Position numbers and translations under genes: made by a program. The notes under the pieces are model-generated. The model was not told the origin of the DNA. It saw only the letters and a program-made list of their open reading frames with translations, and searched no databases. A stretch of DNA of 22,923 nucleotides, taken from the IMG/VR virus record IMGVR_UViG_3300047284_000195, positions 1 to 22,923 of that record, one strand, 5' to 3'. This document shows, piece after piece, positions 8,072 to 22,623 of the stretch. Every line of letters begins with the position of its first letter. Position 1 is the stretch's first letter. This stretch comes from a virus.

Positions 8072-9133
8072 ATGTCAGCGCCTCAGCCATTCTTATGGCC
8101 AGCTCAAGCGAGCGAGAGTGCCAATACCTGGCCAACGTTCGCTGATCCGCAAATGCCCCCAACACCAGTTTTTCCATGGGGGGGGCTGCCGAGCAACGAT
8201 TTATGTAGTAATTGGAAGACTCTCGTCACGCCTGTTGACAACAATTATACGTCAATCTGCTGGGCTTCCGGCTTTGGGATGTTTTTGGCGGTTGCCAGCA
8301 GCGGCACCGGCGGTAGGATCATGGCGTCATATGACGGGTATCGATGGTTTGTGGTGCCGACTACGGCGGATCTCAACATCAACTTTACGTCAGTTGCATT
8401 CAGTCCTGATCTTGGCATGGCGGTTGCTGTTGCCAACTCGGGCACGGGAGCCAGAGCGGCATACACATTTGATGGCTGTAACTGGTTTTTGTCCAGCACG
8501 CCGGCCGATAACGCATGGAACTCTGTTGCATGGTCGCAAACTCTGGGCATGTTTGCTGCAGTGGCAAGCACCGGCACAGGCAACAGGGTAATGACCAGCA
8601 GCGATGGGATCAACTGGGAATTACAGGTAACGAACTGGGACAACTCCTGGGTTTCTATTTGTTCGGCAGAATACCTGGGAATGTTTATTGCTGTTGCCCA
8701 GTCCGGCACCGGCAGCAGGGTGATGACCAGCAGCGATGGAGTTGACTGGATTGCCAGATTAAGCGCAGCCGATAATACATGGACAGGTGTTTGCGCGATT
8801 GAAAGCCTGCGTCGTGTGGTTGCTGTTGCTAGCACCGGCGCAGGCAACAGGGCGATGATTTCAGTAGATGGCATTTCCTGGTTTTCAAGAAGTACATCTA
8901 TTGATGCAACATGGACAGCATTGTGCCCCATTGATCAGCTTCACAGAGTAGTAGCAGTTGCCCAATCAAACGTAGGCATCAGCGACGACGGCGGCAATAC
9001 ATGGAGACGTGTCACGCCGTCAGACACCAATGATCGCACCGGCATTGCGTGGTCCCAGGAACTTGGCATCTTGGCATGCGTGTCTGACACTGGCACCAAA
9101 AACCGCGTCATGATTTCGGGAGGTGGGTTATGA
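8072..9133 (+). CDS. Predicted seven-bladed beta-propeller protein (BNR/Asp-box-like repeats)
   Basis: After a Pro-rich N-terminus (~1-45) the 353-residue protein consists of repeats of about 44 residues. Each has a strand (GMFLAVASSGTG-like), NRVMTS, then S-x-D-G-x-x-W. Repeat tryptophans fall at 48, 92, 138, 182, 226, 270 and 311, seven in all. The first (SNWKTLVTPVD) has only the outer-strand part and the last repeat (residues ~320-353) stops just before its S-x-D-G-W strand, so the ends would complete one blade together: the classic Velcro closure of a propeller ring. Asp-box propellers often bind sugars, so an adhesin role is plausible; no sialidase catalytic residues were recognised. 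It overlaps the next gene (ATGA). A run of eight G lies at 8178-8185. Confidence 0.78.
   Translation: MSAPQPFLWPAQASESANTWPTFADPQMPPTPVFPWGGLPSNDLCSNWKTLVTPVDNNYTSICWASGFGMFLAVASSGTGGRIMASYDGYRWFVVPTTADLNINFTSVAFSPDLGMAVAVANSGTGARAAYTFDGCNWFLSSTPADNAWNSVAWSQTLGMFAAVASTGTGNRVMTSSDGINWELQVTNWDNSWVSICSAEYLGMFIAVAQSGTGSRVMTSSDGVDWIARLSAADNTWTGVCAIESLRRVVAVASTGAGNRAMISVDGISWFSRSTSIDATWTALCPIDQLHRVVAVAQSNVGISDDGGNTWRRVTPSDTNDRTGIAWSQELGILACVSDTGTKNRVMISGGGL
8178..8185 (+). repeat. G8 homopolymer near the start of the propeller gene
   Basis: Eight consecutive G bases follow CCAT and encode part of P-W-G-G-L-P at residues 35-40. Gain or loss of one G would shift the frame before the first propeller strand and abolish the whole adhesin-like domain, so this is a possible slipped-strand switch or an error-prone site in sequencing. 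Confidence 0.6.
8571..8749 (+). repeat. Near-identical 47-base direct repeats in propeller blades 3 and 4
   Basis: The segment at 8571-8617 (CCGGCACAGGCAACAGGGTA onward) recurs at 8703-8749 with only a handful of substitutions. The 132-base spacing is exactly 44 codons, one blade. Other blades are more divergent, so these two probably arose by, or were homogenised by, recent recombination. Confidence 0.8.
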
Positions 9134-9938: not shown

Positions 9939-10136
9939 ATGGACATGGACATTTTCGACGATGAGTTCGCCGGGATGGGCGGCACTTATGAGGTGGTGAG
10001 GGGCAAGCGCCGGCTTGTGCCCGGCAGCCGTACCCTGCCGCCTGAGCCGCAATCTGGGGTGGTGGATGAGCCCGCCGCCGAACCATCGCCCGATGCCATG
10101 GCCCCTGATCCCCTGCCCCCTGCCCCTGAGGATTGA
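9939..10136 (+). CDS. Small acidic Pro-rich protein upstream of the tail tube gene
   Basis: This 65-residue ORF lies between tail terminator and tail tube genes. It starts MDMDIFDDEFAGMGGTYEVV, continues GKRRLVPGSRT, and ends in a Pro/Ala/Glu/Asp-rich tail likely to be disordered. Small proteins with a DEFAGxGG-Y-x-V pattern occur at this place in related phages, but I know no function. A fair ribosome site (GAGGG near 9926) precedes the ATG. Its end abuts the tube gene, whose preferred ATG is six bases beyond this stop. The low complexity of the C-terminus leaves some doubt; position and start signal support it. Confidence 0.65.
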   Translation: MDMDIFDDEFAGMGGTYEVVRGKRRLVPGSRTLPPEPQSGVVDEPAAEPSPDAMAPDPLPPAPED

Positions 10137-10141
10137 CACCG

Positions 10142-11074
10142 ATGCCGTTGCTGTCTCGTAAGCGCGTCATCGCGCTAAAAACCGAAGCCACCTACGCAAC
10201 CGCGCCCACCATCGCCGCTGCCGATTGCGTGCTGGTGCGTGATCTGAACATTCAACCGGCCAACACCACCATGGTGAGCCGCGATCTGGTTCGCCCGTTT
10301 CTGGGTGCCAGCGAGCAGCTGCCCGCCAACACCCAGGTTGTCGTCACCTTCTCGGTGGAGCTGGCCGGCAGCGGCACCGCTGGCACCGCGCCGCGATATG
10401 ACGCAGCGCTGAAAGCCTGCAGCATGTCGGGCACCGTGGCTGCAGGCACCAGCGTTACATACATTCCCATCAGCACCGATCCCACTTCAATCACCATCCT
10501 CTATAACGTGGATGGTGTGCTGCATACGGTGACCGGCTGCCGTGGTTCGTTCGTGGTGAACGGCACCGTAGGCGAGATCCCAACGCTGGATTTCACCTTT
10601 ACCGGTATCTTCAACGCCGTTACCGATACCAACGCTTTAGTGCCAACCTACGGCGCTCAGGCCACACCGCTGGTGTTCAAGCTGGGCAATACCAGCGCCA
10701 TGCAGCTGCACAGCTTCGCCGGTTGCTTCCAATCCGTCAGTTTCGACCTTGGCAATACGCTGGTTTACCGTGAGCTGGTTGGCTGCTCTAAGCAGGTGAT
10801 TGTTACCGATCGCAGCTCAACCGGTACGGTGGTTCTGGAGGCGCCCACCATGGCGCAGAAGAACTACTTTACCAACATCGACGCTGGCACCACCGGGAAC
10901 CTCACCTTCCTGCATGGCACCACCGCCGGCAACCGGGTGACCCTGACCGCTCCGACCACCAGCCTTACCTCAGTGGCATACGAAGATCAGGACGGTATCC
11001 ACATGCTGAACTGCGGATACACTGCGGTTGCTGCCAGTGCGGTCACTCCTGAAGTTTCTCTCGTCTTCACCTGA
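10142..11074 (+). CDS. Major tail tube protein (gpV-like; Phage_tube_2 type)
   Basis: The 310-residue protein should polymerise as stacked hexamers to form the tail tube. Family features are the opening SRKRVIALKTEATYATAPTI, the DLVRPFLGASEQLPANTQVV block, then FSVELAGSGTAGTAPRYDAA and LKACSMSG, a pattern shared by Phage_tube_2 tail tube proteins. The C-terminal half (from ~200) is also beta-rich (FQSVSFDLGNTLVYRELVGC) and may form a second surface domain. I chose ATG 10142 rather than the in-frame TTG at 10133, because GAGG at 10128-10131 is ten bases ahead of the ATG but only one base from the TTG. The stop overlaps the chaperone ATG by one base. Confidence 0.9.
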   Translation: MPLLSRKRVIALKTEATYATAPTIAAADCVLVRDLNIQPANTTMVSRDLVRPFLGASEQLPANTQVVVTFSVELAGSGTAGTAPRYDAALKACSMSGTVAAGTSVTYIPISTDPTSITILYNVDGVLHTVTGCRGSFVVNGTVGEIPTLDFTFTGIFNAVTDTNALVPTYGAQATPLVFKLGNTSAMQLHSFAGCFQSVSFDLGNTLVYRELVGCSKQVIVTDRSSTGTVVLEAPTMAQKNYFTNIDAGTTGNLTFLHGTTAGNRVTLTAPTTSLTSVAYEDQDGIHMLNCGYTAVAASAVTPEVSLVFT

Positions 11075-11412
11075 TGTCGTTCGTTCTGGATCAGCAGCCG
11101 GCCTACCGCTGGCCGGTTGCTGTTGAGTTTCCGATTGATGGCGGCAAGTTTCAGCGCCAAACCTTTGACGCTGATCTCAAGCGCTTGTCTCAGGATCGCA
11201 TCGGCGAAATCTGGGAGCTGATCAAAACCGAAGAGCTGAACGACCGTGATCTGTGCCGCGAAATCCTGCTGGGATGGGATGGCATCACCGACGCCAAAGG
11301 TGACCCTGTGCCGTTCTCTGAGAAGGCCCGCGATCAGCTGCTAAACGTGCAACTGGTTGCCAGTGCTGTTGTTCAGGCGTGGATTGATTCGCTGGGAAAG
11401 CGGAAGCGCTGA
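11074..11412 (+). CDS. Tail assembly chaperone, G product
   Basis: This 112-residue protein sits between tail tube and tape measure genes, the place of lambda gpG, which coats the tape measure protein and recruits tube subunits. The sequence begins with a short strand region (YRWPVAVEFPIDGGKFQRQT) and is then helical (DLKRLSQDRIGEIWELIKTE), with a W-D-G-I-T-D motif and FSEKARDQLLN; this resembles gpG-like tail assembly chaperones. It ends SLGKRKR. Just before the stop lies GGGAAAG in the right phase for a -1 slip, so a minor share should extend into the T frame. TGATG coupling joins it to the tube gene. Confidence 0.88.
   Translation: MSFVLDQQPAYRWPVAVEFPIDGGKFQRQTFDADLKRLSQDRIGEIWELIKTEELNDRDLCREILLGWDGITDAKGDPVPFSEKARDQLLNVQLVASAVVQAWIDSLGKRKR
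11394..11400 (+). promoter_or_regulatory. Programmed -1 frameshift site (GGGAAAG slippery heptamer)
   Basis: In the G frame the bases read CTG GGA AAG CGG, i.e. G_GGA_AAG, the X_XXY_YYZ form and the same heptamer that lambda uses for its G-T fusion. Slipping back one base re-pairs the tRNAs on GGG AAA and continues with GCG at 11400. The G frame stops 12 bases later (TGA 11410-11412). The -1 frame is closed upstream by TGA at 11385-11387. A possible imperfect stem (AGCCGGCC at 11423-11430 with GGCC at 11438-11441 and GGCT at 11445-11448) lies 22 bases downstream; that is rather far for a stimulator. Confidence 0.85.
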
Positions 11413-11750
11413 ACCTGAGGGAAGCCGGCCGATGGTGGGCCACTGGCTGGAAGGTTGCGGATGATGGCCAGGCTGCGGCAGATGATGCGGCAGCCTTTGG
11501 CATCATCGTAGAAGATGCCACGCCAGAGCCTGAACCACAGTTCAAGGTATGGCCTGAGAACTGGGACGCGATCTGTCTATTCCTGGCCATGCAAAGCCAA
11601 TGGCGCCACAGCTACGGCGGTCTGGCTGGCTTAGACTACAGCGTGTTACCGATCGTGGGGTCTGGGTTGGGCATCCGCTGGCGTGAGCAGTTTGAGCGGT
11701 TGCAGATCATTGAGTTTGCAGCACTGGAAGCACTGGCGGAGAAACGCTGA
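11400..11750 (+). CDS. Tail assembly chaperone T extension (made only by -1 frameshift; DUF1799-like)
   Basis: A frame of 116 codons runs from the slippery site to a TGA whose last base is shared with the tape measure ATG. It has no ATG, GTG or TTG until an ATG at 11589, halfway in, so it should be read only as a G-T fusion of about 225 residues (109 + 116). Its sequence (REAGRWWATGWKV, then FKVWPENWDAICLFLAMQSQ, WRHSYGGLAGLDYSVLP, ending EFAALEALAEKR) fits the DUF1799 pattern of phage proteins at this position, equivalent to lambda T. In lambda the T part brings tube subunits to the gpG-coated tape measure. Without this frame 337 bases between G and the tape measure would look empty. Confidence 0.85.
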   Translation, partial: AEALNLREAGRWWATGWKVADDGQAAADDAAAFGIIVEDATPEPEPQFKVWPENWDAICLFLAMQSQWRHSYGGLAGLDYSVLPIVGSGLGIRWREQFERLQIIEFAALEALAEKR

Positions 11751-14700
11751 TGGCACTGAATCTGGACACCGCCATCCGGCTGACTGCTCAGGTGCAGGGT
11801 GCGAACAGCATTCGCAGCATCGCCACCAACCTGCAGCAGCTGAACAGCACCGCACAGCTCAGTGGCCGGCAGCTCGACAAGCTCTACACCGAAACCCAGC
11901 GGTTTGCCGCTGCGGCGGGCAATAGCATCAATGCAATCCGCCAGCAGCGGCAGGCACTGACGACGCTGCGCGATGCGGCGGATCCAGCGAGCAGGCGGTT
12001 TCAGCTGCTGACCCGTGATGTAGACCAGCTTGATGCACGGTTGCGGCGGCTGCAGGGCACGACGAAGGATGCCAGGTTCAGTATGCGCGAGGCGCTCGGC
12101 GGCGCCGCCGGTGCTGCAGCAATGGGCGCCGGCCCTGGCGCTGCGGTTGGTGCGCTGGGTGGGTCATTGGCTGCTGCAGGCGGCCCGGCCGGGATTGCGG
12201 CAGCGGCCGGGCTGGCGGCAACGGCTGGCCTGACGGTGCAGAGCGTTCAGAATGCCCGAGCGCTAGAAGATCAATCCCGCCGGCTGCGGGTGATGACCGA
12301 GGATTCGGCAGCACTTCAGGCTGGCATCATTGCGCTGGTGCGTGAGCAGGGTCACCTGACTAGCACGACTGAAGCAACGGCGGCAGCATACGAAATTCTG
12401 CAGGCTGGGTTCAGCAAGACTGAAGATGTAGTGGCTGTTTTGCGTGCGTCTACGTTAGGCGCAACAGCAGGCTTTACAGATGCCAGGACGGTTGCTGATG
12501 CACTGACTTCAGTGATCAATGGCTACGGTCTTAGTGCGGCGGAATCTGGGCGATTGGTTGACCAGATGAAAGCGGCAACGGATGACGGCAAGATCAGCAT
12601 GGAGCAATATGCGCAGTCAATCGGTAAAGTGGTGCCTAGTGCTGCTGCGGCAAAGATTTCTTTCAGTGAGATCAACGCGGCAATCAGTGCGCTGACTGCA
12701 CAAGGCGTACCGGTTGAATCTACGTTTGCGGGTATCAACCAGATCCTCGCCAGCGTCATTAAGCCGACTAAAGAAGCGGCAGAGTTTGCCGAAGAACTTG
12801 GGCTGCAGTTTAACTCTCAAGCGATTGCCGCAAAAGGCTTGGGCGGCTTCTTGGCAGATGTGGCGGAAAAAACTGGCATGAGCAACGAAGCATTGGGCAG
12901 GCTGTTCTCTGATATTGATGGCCGCAAGGCTGTCATTTCATTGCTAAATGATGACTTGGTAAGGTTCAATAAATCTTTGGACAATCAAGCCGACTCACTA
13001 GGCCGCACCGCAAAAGCTGCTCAGATTGCCATTGATCCGGTCAAACAGTTTGACAATACATGGAAGGATCTAACGGCAACCCTGGGCTCGCTTGTGCTGC
13101 CAACGCTTAATTCAGTGGTTCGCAGTTTGACGGATGTGCTGCAATCAGTGCTGGCAATGCCAAAAGCACTGCAGGCTTTTGGCATTGAGGTAACTAAAAA
13201 TGTAATCCCACTGGGTCGGGAGTTTGCGGCGATTGCGGAAGTTGCCAAGCGAATCCAGGAATTGCGAGGCCAGCCGGCAGCGGCGTTGCCGCCACAGCAA
13301 TATGGCCCACCAGTGCCGCCTACCCTGGCGCTCCGAGCTGCCGCCGCTGATCCCGCCCGCGCTGCCGCCGCTGCTCGTGCTACTGAAATCGCCCGCCGGC
13401 TGGCCGCTGGCGATGATGACCCCGCCAAGAAAGCAGCCAAGGAAGCAGAGAAGCAAGCCAAGCTACAGGAATCCCTTGCCGAGAAAACCGCTGATCATCA
13501 GCGGCGCATCTCCGAAGAACTGGCGCAGCGTGAGCAGCAGTTGGCGGTGCAGCGGTATCAGGATCAGATCGAAATGCAAGATACCCTCCACCGGCTGCAG
13601 ATGCAGCAGATTGAGGATGAACGGCAGGCCCGCCTGAAGCTAGCCGAGGCTCGTGTTGATGTCGCCATCGCCCAGGCGCCAGAAGATCGTCGGTGGTTGC
13701 TGGAGTTTCGCCGTGATCTGATCAACATTCATGGCGGCACCACTGAGGCCATCCTGGATCTGGAACGCAAGCTGGCGGACAAGCGGCAGCAGCTGGCCCG
13801 TGCCCAGGCCAATGTGCAACTGGCCGTGATGCAAGAGCGTGCTGAGGTGATCCGCACCGAACTGCCGGGGCAGCAGCCCACAGCCGGCGCGGCGGATGGT
13901 GGCGTGGTCAACCGCCTGCTAAGGGCTGCCCAATCCAATCTGGGACTGTTCGCCGGGCAGACGGAGCGCTGCGCAGATGCAATCCGCAAGTTGTACGACG
14001 TTGCCGGTGTTGCCATCGGCACCACAAAGAAGGCATGGGATGGCCTGGCCAGTGGCGGCCGGCTGGCGTCGAGCTTCTTCGGTTCGGACATCGGCCAGCG
14101 CGTCAACCGACAGCAGGATCTACGCCCCGGCGACCTGGTGGGATTTGAACGTACCTACGGGCGCTGGGGCCCCGGCGTGCAGACCCATGTGGGCATGTAT
14201 GCCGGCGAAGGAATGATGTTTGACCACAGCTCCAGCAGGGGGCTAGTGAAGCGTCCGCTGAGCACATTCGGCGGAAAGTTCATGTACGGGGTGCGCCCGT
14301 ATGCGCTGGGTGGGGGCGCTGCAACTCCCGCCCCTGCTGGCCCAGGCGGTGAGCTTGTAACGACCCTGCCGGCCAGTCAGGCCGGGCGTGAGGCCGCCAT
14401 GGCTGAGGTGCAGCGCACCCAGCTAGAGCTGGATGCCATCACCCGATCGCTTGAGAAGGCGCGGGGCATCATCGCCGAAACCGGCGCGGCGCAGATCACC
14501 GCCCGATCGCTGACTGAGATCGAACAGCTCAGCCAGCCGCTCGAGCAGCTGGTGAAAGCCTCCGGCGATCGGCTGGCGTTTGAGCGTGAGTACGGCGAAC
14601 TGCTGCGGACTGGTATCAATCCCCAGCTGGCCCAGGAGTTTGCAGAGATTGAGCAGATTGCTGATCGTCGGCGGGACATGCTGCAGCGGTTGGCGGGCGA

Positions 14701-15484
14701 ACTGGAGAAGCGTTCGCAGCTGGCCCACCTGACGCAACAGGACCGCAGCGCCTATGCGGAGCAAGCCACTGTGGCCCGCAGCCTGCTGGCAACACAGGAT
14801 CAACAGGTGGAGCGCCTGAAGGAAGAGTTGCGCATCCAGGAGGAGATCACCCGCCAGCGGGAGCTGCAGCAGGATGATCGGATCGGAATGGGCGCCCGTG
14901 AGGGGATTGAGGGCTACATCCAGTCAATCGGCACAATGCGGGAGGCGACCGCTCAGCTCACACAGGATGGCATTCGCGGGCTGGAGGATCAGCTGGTGAG
15001 CCTGGCTACCACCGGCAAGGCCAACTTCCATGAGTTTGCGGTTTCGGTGCTGACCTCTACGGCGCGGATGATCATTCAGCAGATGGTGCTGGGGACGATC
15101 ATGCGTGCATTGGGCGGGATCGGTGGATCGGCGGTTGGCACCGCGTTTCAGATGCCAACCGCTGGATTCCTCACGACTGGTTTCAGCTTTGCTGGTGGTG
15201 GTTACACCGGCGATGCACCGCGAAGCGGCGGCCTTGACGGGCAGGGGGGCTTCCTGGCGATGCTGCACCCACGAGAGACAGTGGTGGATCACCACCGGGG
15301 CCAGGGCACCGCTGCAGGGCCGACCTATGTCACGGTGAACGTGAACACCACCACCGGCGAGACTGAAGCCACGGCAACCGATAGCGACCGGCGCAAGCTG
15401 GGGCAGGACATCGCTCAGGTCGTGGATGCGAGGATTGTGCATCACCGCCGCCCCGGTGGGCTGCTCAACCCAGCGCGGAGGTAA
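11750..15484 (+). CDS. Tail tape measure protein with embedded NlpC/P60-like peptidase
   Basis: The 1244-residue protein sets tail length and enters the envelope at infection. In order: a helical N-terminus (1-115); a Gly/Ala-rich hydrophobic stretch (~118-165); the tape measure core (~165-425; LEDQSRRLRVMTEDSAALQA, then EILQAGFSKTEDVV and LTAQGVPVESTFAGINQIL); an Ala/Lys/Glu coiled coil (~530-700); an NlpC/P60-like domain (~715-860); more coiled coil (~870-1060); and a lambda gpH-like C-terminus (GIRGLEDQLVSLATTGKANF, then GGGYTGDAPRSGGLDGQGGF and LHPRETVVDH). The peptidase has candidate catalytic Cys741 (TERCADAIRK), His813 (THVGMYAG) and His826 (FDHSS), after a LRPGDLVGFER strand. It would cut peptidoglycan to let the tail tip through. 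At ~0.15 nm per residue the tail would be at most ~190 nm, less the globular insert. Confidence 0.92.
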   Translation: MALNLDTAIRLTAQVQGANSIRSIATNLQQLNSTAQLSGRQLDKLYTETQRFAAAAGNSINAIRQQRQALTTLRDAADPASRRFQLLTRDVDQLDARLRRLQGTTKDARFSMREALGGAAGAAAMGAGPGAAVGALGGSLAAAGGPAGIAAAAGLAATAGLTVQSVQNARALEDQSRRLRVMTEDSAALQAGIIALVREQGHLTSTTEATAAAYEILQAGFSKTEDVVAVLRASTLGATAGFTDARTVADALTSVINGYGLSAAESGRLVDQMKAATDDGKISMEQYAQSIGKVVPSAAAAKISFSEINAAISALTAQGVPVESTFAGINQILASVIKPTKEAAEFAEELGLQFNSQAIAAKGLGGFLADVAEKTGMSNEALGRLFSDIDGRKAVISLLNDDLVRFNKSLDNQADSLGRTAKAAQIAIDPVKQFDNTWKDLTATLGSLVLPTLNSVVRSLTDVLQSVLAMPKALQAFGIEVTKNVIPLGREFAAIAEVAKRIQELRGQPAAALPPQQYGPPVPPTLALRAAAADPARAAAAARATEIARRLAAGDDDPAKKAAKEAEKQAKLQESLAEKTADHQRRISEELAQREQQLAVQRYQDQIEMQDTLHRLQMQQIEDERQARLKLAEARVDVAIAQAPEDRRWLLEFRRDLINIHGGTTEAILDLERKLADKRQQLARAQANVQLAVMQERAEVIRTELPGQQPTAGAADGGVVNRLLRAAQSNLGLFAGQTERCADAIRKLYDVAGVAIGTTKKAWDGLASGGRLASSFFGSDIGQRVNRQQDLRPGDLVGFERTYGRWGPGVQTHVGMYAGEGMMFDHSSSRGLVKRPLSTFGGKFMYGVRPYALGGGAATPAPAGPGGELVTTLPASQAGREAAMAEVQRTQLELDAITRSLEKARGIIAETGAAQITARSLTEIEQLSQPLEQLVKASGDRLAFEREYGELLRTGINPQLAQEFAEIEQIADRRRDMLQRLAGELEKRSQLAHLTQQDRSAYAEQATVARSLLATQDQQVERLKEELRIQEEITRQRELQQDDRIGMGAREGIEGYIQSIGTMREATAQLTQDGIRGLEDQLVSLATTGKANFHEFAVSVLTSTARMIIQQMVLGTIMRALGGIGGSAVGTAFQMPTAGFLTTGFSFAGGGYTGDAPRSGGLDGQGGFLAMLHPRETVVDHHRGQGTAAGPTYVTVNVNTTTGETEATATDSDRRKLGQDIAQVVDARIVHHRRPGGLLNPARR

Positions 15485-16365: not shown

Positions 16366-17033
16366 CCTTTGCAGAAGCTCGCAGTTCATCGCCCACTGCA
16401 ATTATTGAACTTTATCAGCTGGATCTAAACGCTGCGCAACACGGCGTCACCCAGTCCTATTGGTTTCATGGTGGCACCAATCTGAAGGATAACGGCGAGA
16501 TCGTGTGGAACGGCCAGCCGTATCAGCGGCTGCCGATTGAAGCGGACGGATTTGAATACTCCGGAACCGGCCAGCTGCCGCGCCCCAGGATCCGCGCTTC
16601 TAACCTGCTGGGCGGCATCACGGGGCTGATTCAGATTCTGCCTAGCGGCATTGAAGGCGCAAAGGTTACGCGCATTCGCACCTTTGCGCGATTCTTGGAT
16701 GCGGTGAACTTCCCCGGCAACGTCAATCCCTACGGCACGCCATCACCTACAACCGAGCTGCCGCGTGAGATTTACTACCTTGACCGGTTGGTGGTTGAGA
16801 ACCGCGAATACGTCGAATATGAGATGGCGGCAGCGTTTGATCTGGCAGGCGTCAGAATACCTAAGCGGCTGGTGATGGACAATCTGTGCCCATGGGTCTA
16901 CAAGGGCACTGAATGTGGCTACAGCGGCGGGCTGGCAACGTGTGAAAAAACACTGCAAGCCTGTAAGGATCACTTCGGAGAGAATGCGGATCTACCATTT
17001 GGCGGGTTCCCTGGTGTGGGTGGGTTTGTATGA
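16362..17033 (+). CDS. Minor tail protein L (lambda gpL-like, Fe-S type)
   Basis: This 223-residue protein is a tail tip component of the lambda gpL family. Signature stretches are RLPIEADGFEYSGTGQLPRP, RIRASNLLGGITGLI, REIYYLDRLVVENREYVEYE and FDLAGVRIPKRLVM. The C-terminal domain has four cysteines at 176, 185, 194 and 201 (LCPWVYKGTECGYSG, then ATCEKTLQACKDHFGENAD), the set that in lambda gpL holds an iron-sulphur cluster. The N-terminal half makes beta structure at the base of the tail tip. It overlaps gpM and gpK genes by four bases each (ATGA), the K-L block being kept as in lambda. Confidence 0.92.
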   Translation: MTFAEARSSSPTAIIELYQLDLNAAQHGVTQSYWFHGGTNLKDNGEIVWNGQPYQRLPIEADGFEYSGTGQLPRPRIRASNLLGGITGLIQILPSGIEGAKVTRIRTFARFLDAVNFPGNVNPYGTPSPTTELPREIYYLDRLVVENREYVEYEMAAAFDLAGVRIPKRLVMDNLCPWVYKGTECGYSGGLATCEKTLQACKDHFGENADLPFGGFPGVGGFV

Positions 17034-17755
17034 CCTGGCAGGCTGATGCAATCGTTCATGCAATCGAGGATGATCCGCAGGAATCCTGCGGCCTGCTGCT
17101 GGTAATCAACGGCCGGCACCGCTACTGGCGCTGCCGCAACATTTCGCAGGCGCCTGAGTTGACGTTTGTGATCGACCCGGCCGACTACGCCAAGGCGGCC
17201 GATGCGGGCACGGTGGTGGCGATCGTCCACAGCCACCCAGAAGGCGATCCGACGCCATCACCAGACGACCGCACCAACTGCGCCGCCAGCGGCATGCCGT
17301 GGTGGATCGTGACGCCCACGGGGCGGCTGCAGGATCTTCACCCGCCGCTGGCCATCTTGCCGCCGCTGGAGGGGCAGCCATGGGTGTGGGGCATCACCGA
17401 CTGCTGGGATCTGACACGGCAGTGGTATCTCAGGCACGGGGTAACGCTGCCGGACTGGAACCGCCCCAGCCGGGAGGAGTTCAAGGCCGCGCCATGGTTC
17501 GATGATCTGGCCGGCACAGCTGGGTTTCGGGAAGTTGAAGGGCCGCCAGAATGGGGTGATGTGCTGGCCATGCGCCTCTCACCCGGCGCGACACTCACGG
17601 ATCATGTTGGCGTGGCTTTGGGCGGCAGGCTGCTTCATCATCTGGAGGGTAGACTGAGCTCCAGGGATCGCATGACGCCCTACCTGGCCTGTGGCTACCG
17701 CGTATTGAGGCATGAGAACAGTTCGTCTCTACGGCCCACTGGCAGCCTTCCTTGA
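17030..17755 (+). CDS. Tail tip peptidase gpK-like (JAMM metalloprotease + NlpC/P60)
   Basis: Two catalytic domains are visible in 241 residues. The N-terminal JAMM/MPN+ domain has Glu18 (DPQESCGLLL) and the full zinc motif His67-x-His69-x7-Ser77-x2-Asp80 (HSHPEGDPTPSPDD). The C-terminal NlpC/P60 domain has Cys125 (GITDCWDLTRQWY), His192 (TDHVGVALGG) and a third polar residue at His203 or His204 (LLHHLEG). Lambda gpK has the same architecture and is needed for tail tip assembly; cutting peptidoglycan during entry is the likely further role. The gene overlaps gpL by four bases and the following gpI gene by 44 bases. All catalytic residues appear intact. Confidence 0.93.
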   Translation: MTWQADAIVHAIEDDPQESCGLLLVINGRHRYWRCRNISQAPELTFVIDPADYAKAADAGTVVAIVHSHPEGDPTPSPDDRTNCAASGMPWWIVTPTGRLQDLHPPLAILPPLEGQPWVWGITDCWDLTRQWYLRHGVTLPDWNRPSREEFKAAPWFDDLAGTAGFREVEGPPEWGDVLAMRLSPGATLTDHVGVALGGRLLHHLEGRLSSRDRMTPYLACGYRVLRHENSSSLRPTGSLP

Positions 17756-21200: not shown

Positions 21201-21634
21201 CAACGATGTACGTCCGGGCAACACTGAACGATCCAGCGGGCACACCAACCTGGGGGCCATGGCAGGTGCTGACCAATAACCTTATCCGCGCCAGGGGGCT
21301 GCAGTTCAAGATGGAGGCCGTGTCGCGGGATCCGTCGCAGAATATCGCCGTGACGGGGCTGGGTGCGGTAGTGGAGCTGCAGCAACGCGTGGAGCACTCG
21401 GGCCTGATTCCAGCAGAAACCACCCCATCCATTCGCACCATCACATTCGCTAATCCATTTTATGAGCCGCCAGTTGTTAGCATCAACGCTAGCAACCTTG
21501 GCAATGGCAACTACTTTGTGATCAGCAGCAGAACACGAACCAACTTTGCTATTGGCTTTTACAATAGCTCCAACGTCCTCATAGCGCGGGGCTTCCTTTA
21601 CACTGCCACAGGCTACGGCCGGGAGATCATCTAA
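18287..21634 (+). CDS. Central tail fibre / host specificity protein (lambda gpJ-like)
   Basis: The 1115-residue protein forms the central tip fibre that contacts the receptor. The N-terminal part (~50-640) is the conserved gpJ hub: SEQFVEIIDLLCEGPIKGVV, ISRERLRYPNSAMVALRFSA, CCDPAWILWDLLTNTRYGTG, FACNVNIQTSEEAYTLINNL and INHDRPQAAIAQFTLANV. Two fibronectin type III-like units follow (~648-735 and ~745-840). A region with a duplicated LFDxxxGxIDSxxGNWD motif (886 and 947) leads to a C-terminal domain (~1035-1115; FYEPPVVSINASNLGNGNYF, ending YTATGYGREII) that resembles the lectin-like ends of other phage fibres. The hub sets assembly; the distal part most likely sets host range. TAATG coupling joins both neighbours. 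Confidence 0.93.
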   Translation: MAKRSSKTRGPRNVVAGTETRDPKGKVKAGQPGTVGLKDSSEDSESGKVDKDDLVSEQFVEIIDLLCEGPIKGVVGERRGVYLEQTQVEDDRGKQNFEDTEIRFRRGNNDQSRFQLIDNVEREVPVGITLTQGSPIIRTITDVNVDVVRITINVPQMQKIGSQGKIKGSSAELEIATKYTGDAAWTVQMERKINGRTSDLYQQDYKIDLSGTFPVDIRVRRLSKDSNDPKEVNAISWSSYTEISRERLRYPNSAMVALRFSAEQFGSIPERMYLVDGLEILLPSNASVTDNGRVTYSGAWDGTFSSVRQWCCDPAWILWDLLTNTRYGTGDHIQAAQLDKWAFFAASQYANALVPDNRGGFEQRFACNVNIQTSEEAYTLINNLCSVFRAMPYWSAGALTINHDRPQAAIAQFTLANVGPEGFAYANSSLKGRPTVAVVRYMDLDAMDVSFVEVQDQAALAKWGVIKAEVEAFACTSRSQAERVGEWLLYSEWYESQTIEFTSSLEAGMVCRPGSVVEVLDPLRSGQRRGGRVVSATTTAVTVDNASDLTGTGMLTVTMADGSLEKRSVASIAGNVITTAAFSAAPEPGAVWGHDVSTVRPSLWRIVKVSEAERGKYRLSGVAYNESKYDYIERSRPLAFRDVGILNDLPPAPINLVAESVLYEENGSAYIRIVVTWESVPGVSEYRVLWRQDDDNWSSAVVSRNDYNIDQASPGTYIILVRSRRGFVESEHAVLVHVEGGVSTPPQDVTGLTLIPINEQSATLRWDATTELDVQLGGSLLIRHSVSTTGSATWENSIELVPPVGGNETEKLIPLLNGTVLVKWQDLSGNRSVNAATVTITLPTPLPRLKLIEYLEHDTSPPFDGDVVDMVYDAGLDALVLAGGGLFDELVGNIDSLAGNWDDLTGPTDVTSAGSYNFGSTFTAAPGVFDINVRRYIEAGPVVVGSLFDDRIGDIDSWPGNWDGDLVDGTDATMYVRATLNDPAGTPTWGPWQVLTNNLIRARGLQFKMEAVSRDPSQNIAVTGLGAVVELQQRVEHSGLIPAETTPSIRTITFANPFYEPPVVSINASNLGNGNYFVISSRTRTNFAIGFYNSSNVLIARGFLYTATGYGREII
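20942..21178 (+). repeat. Internal duplication in the distal gpJ-like fibre
   Basis: Starting at 20942 (residue 886) and 21125 (residue 947), 183 bases apart, two 18-residue segments share LFDxxxGxIDSxxGNWD (LFDELVGNIDSLAGNWDD and LFDDRIGDIDSWPGNWDG). The Asp-rich turns could bind metal ions; that is inference. Confidence 0.8.
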
Positions 21635-22623
21635 TGGCTCAGCACGATCAGGTCATTGCTAACCAGTCTGCCTCGGCTGTCAGGGCAGACATCAACAGCG
21701 CACTGGCTGCGGTGTTCAGCAACAGCTCCGGCGCCGCTGCACCCACTACCACGGTTGCCTATCAGCCTTGGGCCGATACGACCGCCAACATCATGAAGAT
21801 GCGGAACGGTGCAAACTCCGCATGGATCAACCTCTACACCTTGGATGGTGTTACTGACTACCTAGGGGACGCCAACTTTTACAGCACCATCGTCAGCAGC
21901 GTTCCACGTATTCAGTTTGATACTAACGACTACATCGCATACGACAGGGCGGCGGATGCTTACACCTTTTACACCGCCAGCACATCTCGCGCCAGCATTG
22001 ATATCAATGGCCTGTTCACTCCGCAGGTTCGAGTCGGCAGCACTGCCTATGGTTACGCGCTGAATGCAGACGCTACATCCTCCTATCTGTCGTTTGCGAC
22101 TAATGATTACTTCGCATTCAACCGCAGCACCAATACGCTTCAGTTCCTGGTGGGTGGCGCCACTCTGTTTAGCCTGGCTGATGGGTTTGGCTCCATTGAT
22201 TCCGCCGGTGGCGCCGGTGGGCGATTGAAGTCAAGCAATGGCTCTAACTCTATGCGGCTTGGTTATGCCGCGCCATATCCAACCATCGCAGTCGATAATA
22301 CGGTCTTTCAGGTTGCATCACCTTCAGATATCAAGCTGAAGCACAACATTGAAGACCTGCCGCTTGCTGATGCCTGGCAGCAAGTGCAAGCGATGCGGCC
22401 GGTGTCCTTTGAATGGATCCAAGGGCCAGCGGGGCGCCAGCCGGGTGTTATCGCGCAGGAAATGGAAGCAATCAATCCTGGCTTTGTGCTGCCCACCTTG
22501 GATGGCGAAGATCCACAGGAGCAGGTGATGCAACTCAACACCTCCGCCATCATCGCCACGCTTACCGCAGCGCTGCAGCAGGCAATGGCCAGAATCGAGG
22601 CACTGGAGCAGCAGGCGGGGTAA
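21634..22623 (+). CDS. Tail fibre with C-terminal S74 self-cleaving chaperone domain
   Basis: This 329-residue protein is a short side fibre. The N-terminus (MAQHDQVIANQSASAVRADI, then FSNSSGAAAPTTTVAYQPWA and MRNGANSAWINLYTLDG) is a common fibre attachment segment. The middle (~75-225) has repeated beta units (FDTNDYIAYDRAADAYTFYT versus FATNDYFAFNRSTNTLQFLV). The C-terminus from ~229 is an S74 intramolecular chaperone: Ser231-Asp232 in PSDIKLKHNIEDLPL, then RPVSFEWIQG, GVIAQEMEAINPGFV and a final coiled coil (AALQQAMARIEALEQQAG). Such domains help the fibre trimerise and then cut themselves off at the Ser. It follows gpJ by TAATG overlap, as side fibre genes follow J in lambda. Confidence 0.92.
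   Translation: MAQHDQVIANQSASAVRADINSALAAVFSNSSGAAAPTTTVAYQPWADTTANIMKMRNGANSAWINLYTLDGVTDYLGDANFYSTIVSSVPRIQFDTNDYIAYDRAADAYTFYTASTSRASIDINGLFTPQVRVGSTAYGYALNADATSSYLSFATNDYFAFNRSTNTLQFLVGGATLFSLADGFGSIDSAGGAGGRLKSSNGSNSMRLGYAAPYPTIAVDNTVFQVASPSDIKLKHNIEDLPLADAWQQVQAMRPVSFEWIQGPAGRQPGVIAQEMEAINPGFVLPTLDGEDPQEQVMQLNTSAIIATLTAALQQAMARIEALEQQAG

Follow-up and report, generated by a model that had tools for sequence, protein, structure and literature searches.

In phage lambda, a longer version of the tail chaperone is produced when the ribosome slips back by one base. This G/GT frameshifting has long been known (cited in PMC5009743), and an arrangement in which A_AAA_AAC adjoins the stop codon has already been noted in Acinetobacter phage Loki (PMC5313236). 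The slip sites concerned differ in strength: G_GGA_AAG is highly shift-prone in E. coli, A_AAA_AAC is much weaker than A_AAA_AAG, stimulators of -1 shifts are spaced 5-9 nt from the slip site, and some tailed-phage shifts appear to be stimulator-independent (review PMC5009743).

Here we describe a tail gene junction in 22,923 nucleotides of viral DNA (the window; IMG/VR record IMGVR_UViG_3300047284_000195). It shares with lambda the heptamer G_GGA_AAG, its phase near the end of G, the order of genes (tail tube, G, T, tape measure) and the lack of a conventional ATG for T at the junction. On the other hand, five sense codons follow the heptamer in lambda and three in the window, and the protein families differ, lambda G and T being Phage_TAC_2 (PF06894) and Phage_tail_T (PF06223), whereas the window's T is DUF1799 and its G is near Phage_TAC_4. 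The window's two proteins did not match PF06894 or PF06223 in Pfam, as lambda's own proteins do, and an hhalign profile comparison of the window's T with lambda T found no relation (probability 0.2%). Among other tailed viruses, Synechococcus phages S-CBS1, S-CBS3 and S-LBS1 possess homologous G and T with the G stop at the same place, but are annotated without a frameshift; the chaperone of Loki appeared low in the T fold search (E 0.11); and the haloarchaeal tailed viruses HCTV-1, -2 and -5 differ in being archaeal viruses.

The G gene and the hidden T frame

The features of the locus are collected in Table 1. Counting both strands, the window has a single GGGAAAG, against 2.35 expected by chance, and it is read in the G frame as CTG GGA AAG, the exact phase for a -1 slip. 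Between it and the TGA, which is the fourth codon, lie three sense codons (CGG AAG CGC); both phase and distance are as the original prediction had them. The G and T frames overlap by 25 nt, with the heptamer inside and in phase. In-phase X_XXY_YYZ heptamers occur in the window's genes at 8 per 7,297 codon positions, a rate from which about 0.009 would be expected by chance in the 8-codon overlap. In comparison with the near relative L002, the 43 nt at 11374-11416, which include the heptamer, form the longest identical stretch in 677 nt (P 0.058 in codon shuffles). As evidence for a frameshift site this identity is only suggestive, and dual coding accounts for part of it.

Table 1. Features of the G/T locus in the window.
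Feature	Coordinates	Strand	Evidence
Tail tube protein (Phage_tube_2), upstream neighbour	10133..11074	+	E 7.6e-18
G, tail assembly chaperone, zero frame, 112 aa	11074..11412	+	ORF, PHROG matches, dN/dS
T open frame, -1 to G, DUF1799; predicted expression as GT = join(11074..11400,11400..11750), 225 aa	11388..11750	+	Open frame, Pfam/PHROG, dN/dS
Slippery heptamer G_GGA_AAG, -1 phase	11394..11400	+	Sequence, codon phase
AAGCGC, in place of the last six bases (codons AAA AAC) of the relatives' A_AAA_AAC	11404..11409	+	Codon comparison
TGA stop of G, zero frame; position of the relatives' heptamer-adjoining stop	11410..11412	+	Codon comparison of junctions
Site of the relatives' hairpin, without excess structure in the window	11416..11450	+	Codon-shuffle test
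Tape measure protein, downstream neighbour, starting at the end of T	11750..15484	+	ORF, Pfam, PHROG

The T frame opens directly after a stop and comprises 120 codons, 116 of them downstream of the slip. Its earliest ATG, GTG or TTG is the ATG at 11589, which lies inside the DUF1799 match with 53 aa left and is therefore too late for making the DUF1799 domain. The ORFs that a gene caller would keep leave a gap of 337 bases at 11413-11749. The frame's limits, the want of a usable start in its first half and the size of this gap had all been anticipated, as had a DUF1799-like, T-type product. The latter was borne out by a profile search, in which T matched Pfam DUF1799 (PF08809) at E 7.2e-16 with 58.6 bits (curated cut-off 26), and by the PHROG tail family phrog_680 (E 2e-22). 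Absence of T-type homology, which would have refuted the original prediction, was not the outcome. The PHROGs label of the matched T-type families, "tail length tape measure protein", was likely transferred from the neighbouring gene. Between the window and L002, dN/dS is about 0.12 in the T frame, and the two alternative frames give 0.9 and 4.3; T is under purifying selection in the -1 frame. In the fold search, an AlphaFold model of T (pLDDT 84.8) hit predicted structures annotated as phage "tape measure chaperones", several of them 210-268 aa long, the length of a G-T fusion. The predicted GT has a mass of 25.4 kDa, close to the ~25 kDa originally proposed, with the junction SLGK-AEALN.

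G matches PHROG tail assembly chaperone families (phrog_313, E 4e-6; phrog_569, E 7e-16), and its dN/dS against L002 is 0.045. In Pfam it matched no chaperone model, Phage_TAC_4 (PF08748) included; of the G proteins in the alignment, 12 out of 31 reach that model (E no higher than 0.05, the best being 1.3e-5). Matches of the G fold to the PDB were weak, with the HK97 chaperone 2ob9 (VIA-align, Z 2.1) standing among unrelated rows, so the fold is not decisive on the identity of G. Foldseek found no significant match in the PDB for G or for T, and a sequence search of solved structures with both proteins gave chance-level matches only.

The neighbouring genes reproduce the lambda order, as had been claimed, with Phage_tube_2 upstream and the tape measure gene downstream of G/T. 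Several further genes were observed. The tape measure protein carries a mid-protein NlpC/P60 peptidase domain (residues 741-837, E 1e-5), and a second NlpC/P60 domain is found in a JAB-type protein at 17030-17755. A 353-aa repeat protein (8072-9133), encoded between the capsid and tail genes, contains about seven copies, counted by eye, of 'ASTGTGNRVMTSSDG'-like motifs and has no Pfam match. A putative tail fibre (21634-22623) ends in a C-terminal Peptidase_S74 (endosialidase-type chaperone) domain.

Junctions and downstream structure in related phages

Related loci were drawn from viral contigs, bacterial genomes and phage records. Every intact junction of this census places T at -1 to G and has an in-phase heptamer, and the sole T locus without a heptamer is a truncated one. 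Some 80 distinct junctions, isolate genomes among them, have the same two-frame architecture, and the split with the same stop and frame as in the window recurs in contigs L002 and L003 (the same contigs as L017 and L018, from one metagenome). Among 82 distinct related junctions with a heptamer, T is at -1 in 82/82, and in 73 the heptamer stands against the G stop, as A_AAA_AAC in 64 and G_GGA_AAC in 9, the adjoining stop being UGA, UAA or UAG. The remaining nine comprise G_GGA_AAC eight codons upstream (four junctions), G_GGA_AAG three codons upstream (the window, L017 and L018), one A_AAA_AAA and one A_AAA_AAC that is one codon off. In a set of twelve isolate phages whose T proteins are more distant, most have G_GGA_AAC or A_AAA_AAC at or beside the stop; Pectobacterium phage Ymer carries G_GGT_TTG, again three codons upstream. 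In Klebsiella phages EKq1 (L109) and NewHawk_ER18 (L117), which carry DUF1799, no strict X_XXY_YYZ was found in the G-T overlap, and the sequence at the stop site is CCAAAAGCCTTAA or CCAAAAGCACTAA.

Annotation of these genes varies. Among the DUF1799 relatives, Stenotrophomonas phage Silvanus has a joined frameshift product in its annotation. The records of S-CBS1 (L007), S-LBS1 (L008) and S-CBS3 (L009) give T as a gene of its own, in shortened form, and contain no GT join; that of S-LBS1 names the G gene an ABC transporter ATPase component.

Downstream of the heptamer, just past the stop, the relatives have contiguous stems of 7-13 bp (G-U allowed), mostly starting 4-8 nt after it, in agreement with the 5-9 nt stimulator distance (PMC5009743). 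Because this stretch is protein-coding, the reference for its folding energies was a set of shuffles in which the T protein is preserved and synonymous codons are sampled as often as the locus itself uses them. At the A_AAA_AAC junctions, a 39-nt segment from about 3 nt past the stop gave a mean z of -2.05 (SE 0.2, n=30), and segments at least 15 nt past the stop averaged about -0.6 to +0.3; a 51-nt version gave -1.91 (n=31), and its control positions -0.38 and -0.47. The three GGGAAAG junctions had no such excess at the hairpin site (mean z +0.19 in the 39-nt test), nor had the window alone in the 51-nt test (z +0.18), and structure around the window's own heptamer was not significant (z -0.71). 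Stop-adjoining DUF1799-type sites have the heptamer directly before the stop and usually a hairpin 5-8 nt downstream of it, whereas in the window the heptamer is three codons off and no hairpin was found.

RNAalifold found no consensus structure on the stop-anchored alignment of relatives, because the helix register differs between phages; the claim of a hairpin is therefore based on codon-shuffle statistics rather than column covariation. An Rfam search around the slip site returned one chance match and nothing else. Heptamer type is associated with the hairpin over 43 junctions (Fisher P 0.018; 0.004 with nine named isolates added), but on the tree there are only two well-supported independent pairs, and so the coupling is not established once kinship is considered. 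Separately, loci L077, L078, L081 and L092 have an extended G with G_GGA_AAC eight codons ahead of the stop. In L077 an 8-bp stem begins 5 nt after this upstream heptamer, tying the hairpin to the heptamer and not to the stop.

Origin of the GGGAAAG site

The original prediction regarded the lambda heptamer as conserved while the chaperone proteins had diverged. This is not supported by the relatives, 73/82 of which have A_AAA_AAC or G_GGA_AAC at the stop, nor by the placement of lambda G and T in other Pfam families. Among relatives, GGGAAAG occurs at the junction only in the window and in two contigs that come from a single metagenome, and in all three the former site reads AAGCGC-TGA. A scan for further members gave 11 pattern matches, in which the only true relatives were these two known contigs. 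A tree of G and T, with poor resolution in its deeper branches, unites the three GGGAAAG rows, and A_AAA_AAC at the stop is found in all of the rows nearest to this group. Convergence is therefore the best reading of the identity with lambda, and the window's heptamer is most simply explained as a derived replacement.

Codon comparison suggests how such a replacement might have come about. In relatives G ends in GGC AAA CGA AAA AAC TGA (GKRKN) and in the window in GGA AAG CGG AAG CGC TGA (GKRKR). Across these five final codons all changes but the last are synonymous, and together they make G_GGA_AAG upstream and abolish A_AAA_AAC at the stop. Two codons (Ser/Ala-Lys) that precede GGC in relatives are absent from the window. 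The slip signal of the window's clade appears to have shifted upstream and changed its type. We tentatively propose, at a little under even odds, that the clade replaced a weak stop-adjoining A_AAA_AAC and its stimulating hairpin with a strong, stand-alone G_GGA_AAG three codons upstream, that the end of G stayed almost unchanged and that the hairpin was lost. The reported slip strengths and the stimulator-independent shifts (PMC5009743) would fit such an exchange, in which one strong site takes over from a weak site and its hairpin. In the literature covered, which leaves aside most subscription papers, no description of the hairpin in the DUF1799 family or of the site swap was found.

Explanations of the junction and their meaning

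The sequence and phase of the heptamer, the gene order, the homology and the selection seen for T, and the two-frame architecture of relatives make it very probable that the locus uses programmed -1 frameshifting of the lambda type, with G and GT as products. From homology and architecture we infer slippage, its rate, the G:GT ratio and the chaperone roles of the two products. In a tail operon of siphophage type, most ribosomes would terminate at the TGA at 11410 and yield the chaperone G. A small share would slip back one base on G_GGA_AAG, re-pair as GGG AAA, read GCG GAA GCG CTG AAC and continue through the 116 codons to produce GT. If lambda is a guide, the tape measure protein may be coated by the G part, and the T part may recruit tail tube subunits.

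It is unlikely that T is a separate gene, translated from an internal or near-cognate start of its own through coupling to the end of G translation. The G stop does overlap the T frame, as in coupled genes, and T of Rhodobacter phage RC1 and Rhodovulum phage RS1 is annotated as separate, starting at the overlap; yet that annotated start coincides with G_GGA_AAC-TGA. The late first start of the window's T frame speaks against such a gene, first starts lie deep inside T in most relatives too, and independent initiation needs no in-phase X_XXY_YYZ, which the intact junctions of the census nevertheless possess throughout. A -1 switch by slippage of RNA polymerase rather than the ribosome is highly improbable. 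Most relatives offer at least six consecutive A at the site, a substrate for polymerase slippage, but the window has just three G and three A, GGGAAAC is also used by relatives, and the distance of the relatives' hairpin fits a ribosomal stimulator (5-9 nt; PMC5009743). It is scarcely credible that T is normally in frame with G and that the split reflects gene decay or an error of sequencing or assembly: the data are metagenomic and come from a single contig, but L002, L003 and the junctions of other phages, isolates included, repeat the split, and both G and T are under purifying selection.

The ribosomal frameshift thus favoured is an ordinary mechanism, and the swap of slip sites is the interesting part. 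The mechanism being textbook, the discovery is a small one, which fixes an annotation gap in which a tail chaperone domain was hidden; the same domain is likewise split, shortened or unjoined in several GenBank relatives. If the swap is true, the GT:G ratio would have been kept despite an exchanged signal, a natural trade-off between slip-site strength and stimulator. Across the family, the heptamer, its spacing from the stop and the hairpin differ although the product is constant. With such a natural series it becomes testable whether phages hold their G:GT ratio by balancing the strength of the heptamer against RNA structure.
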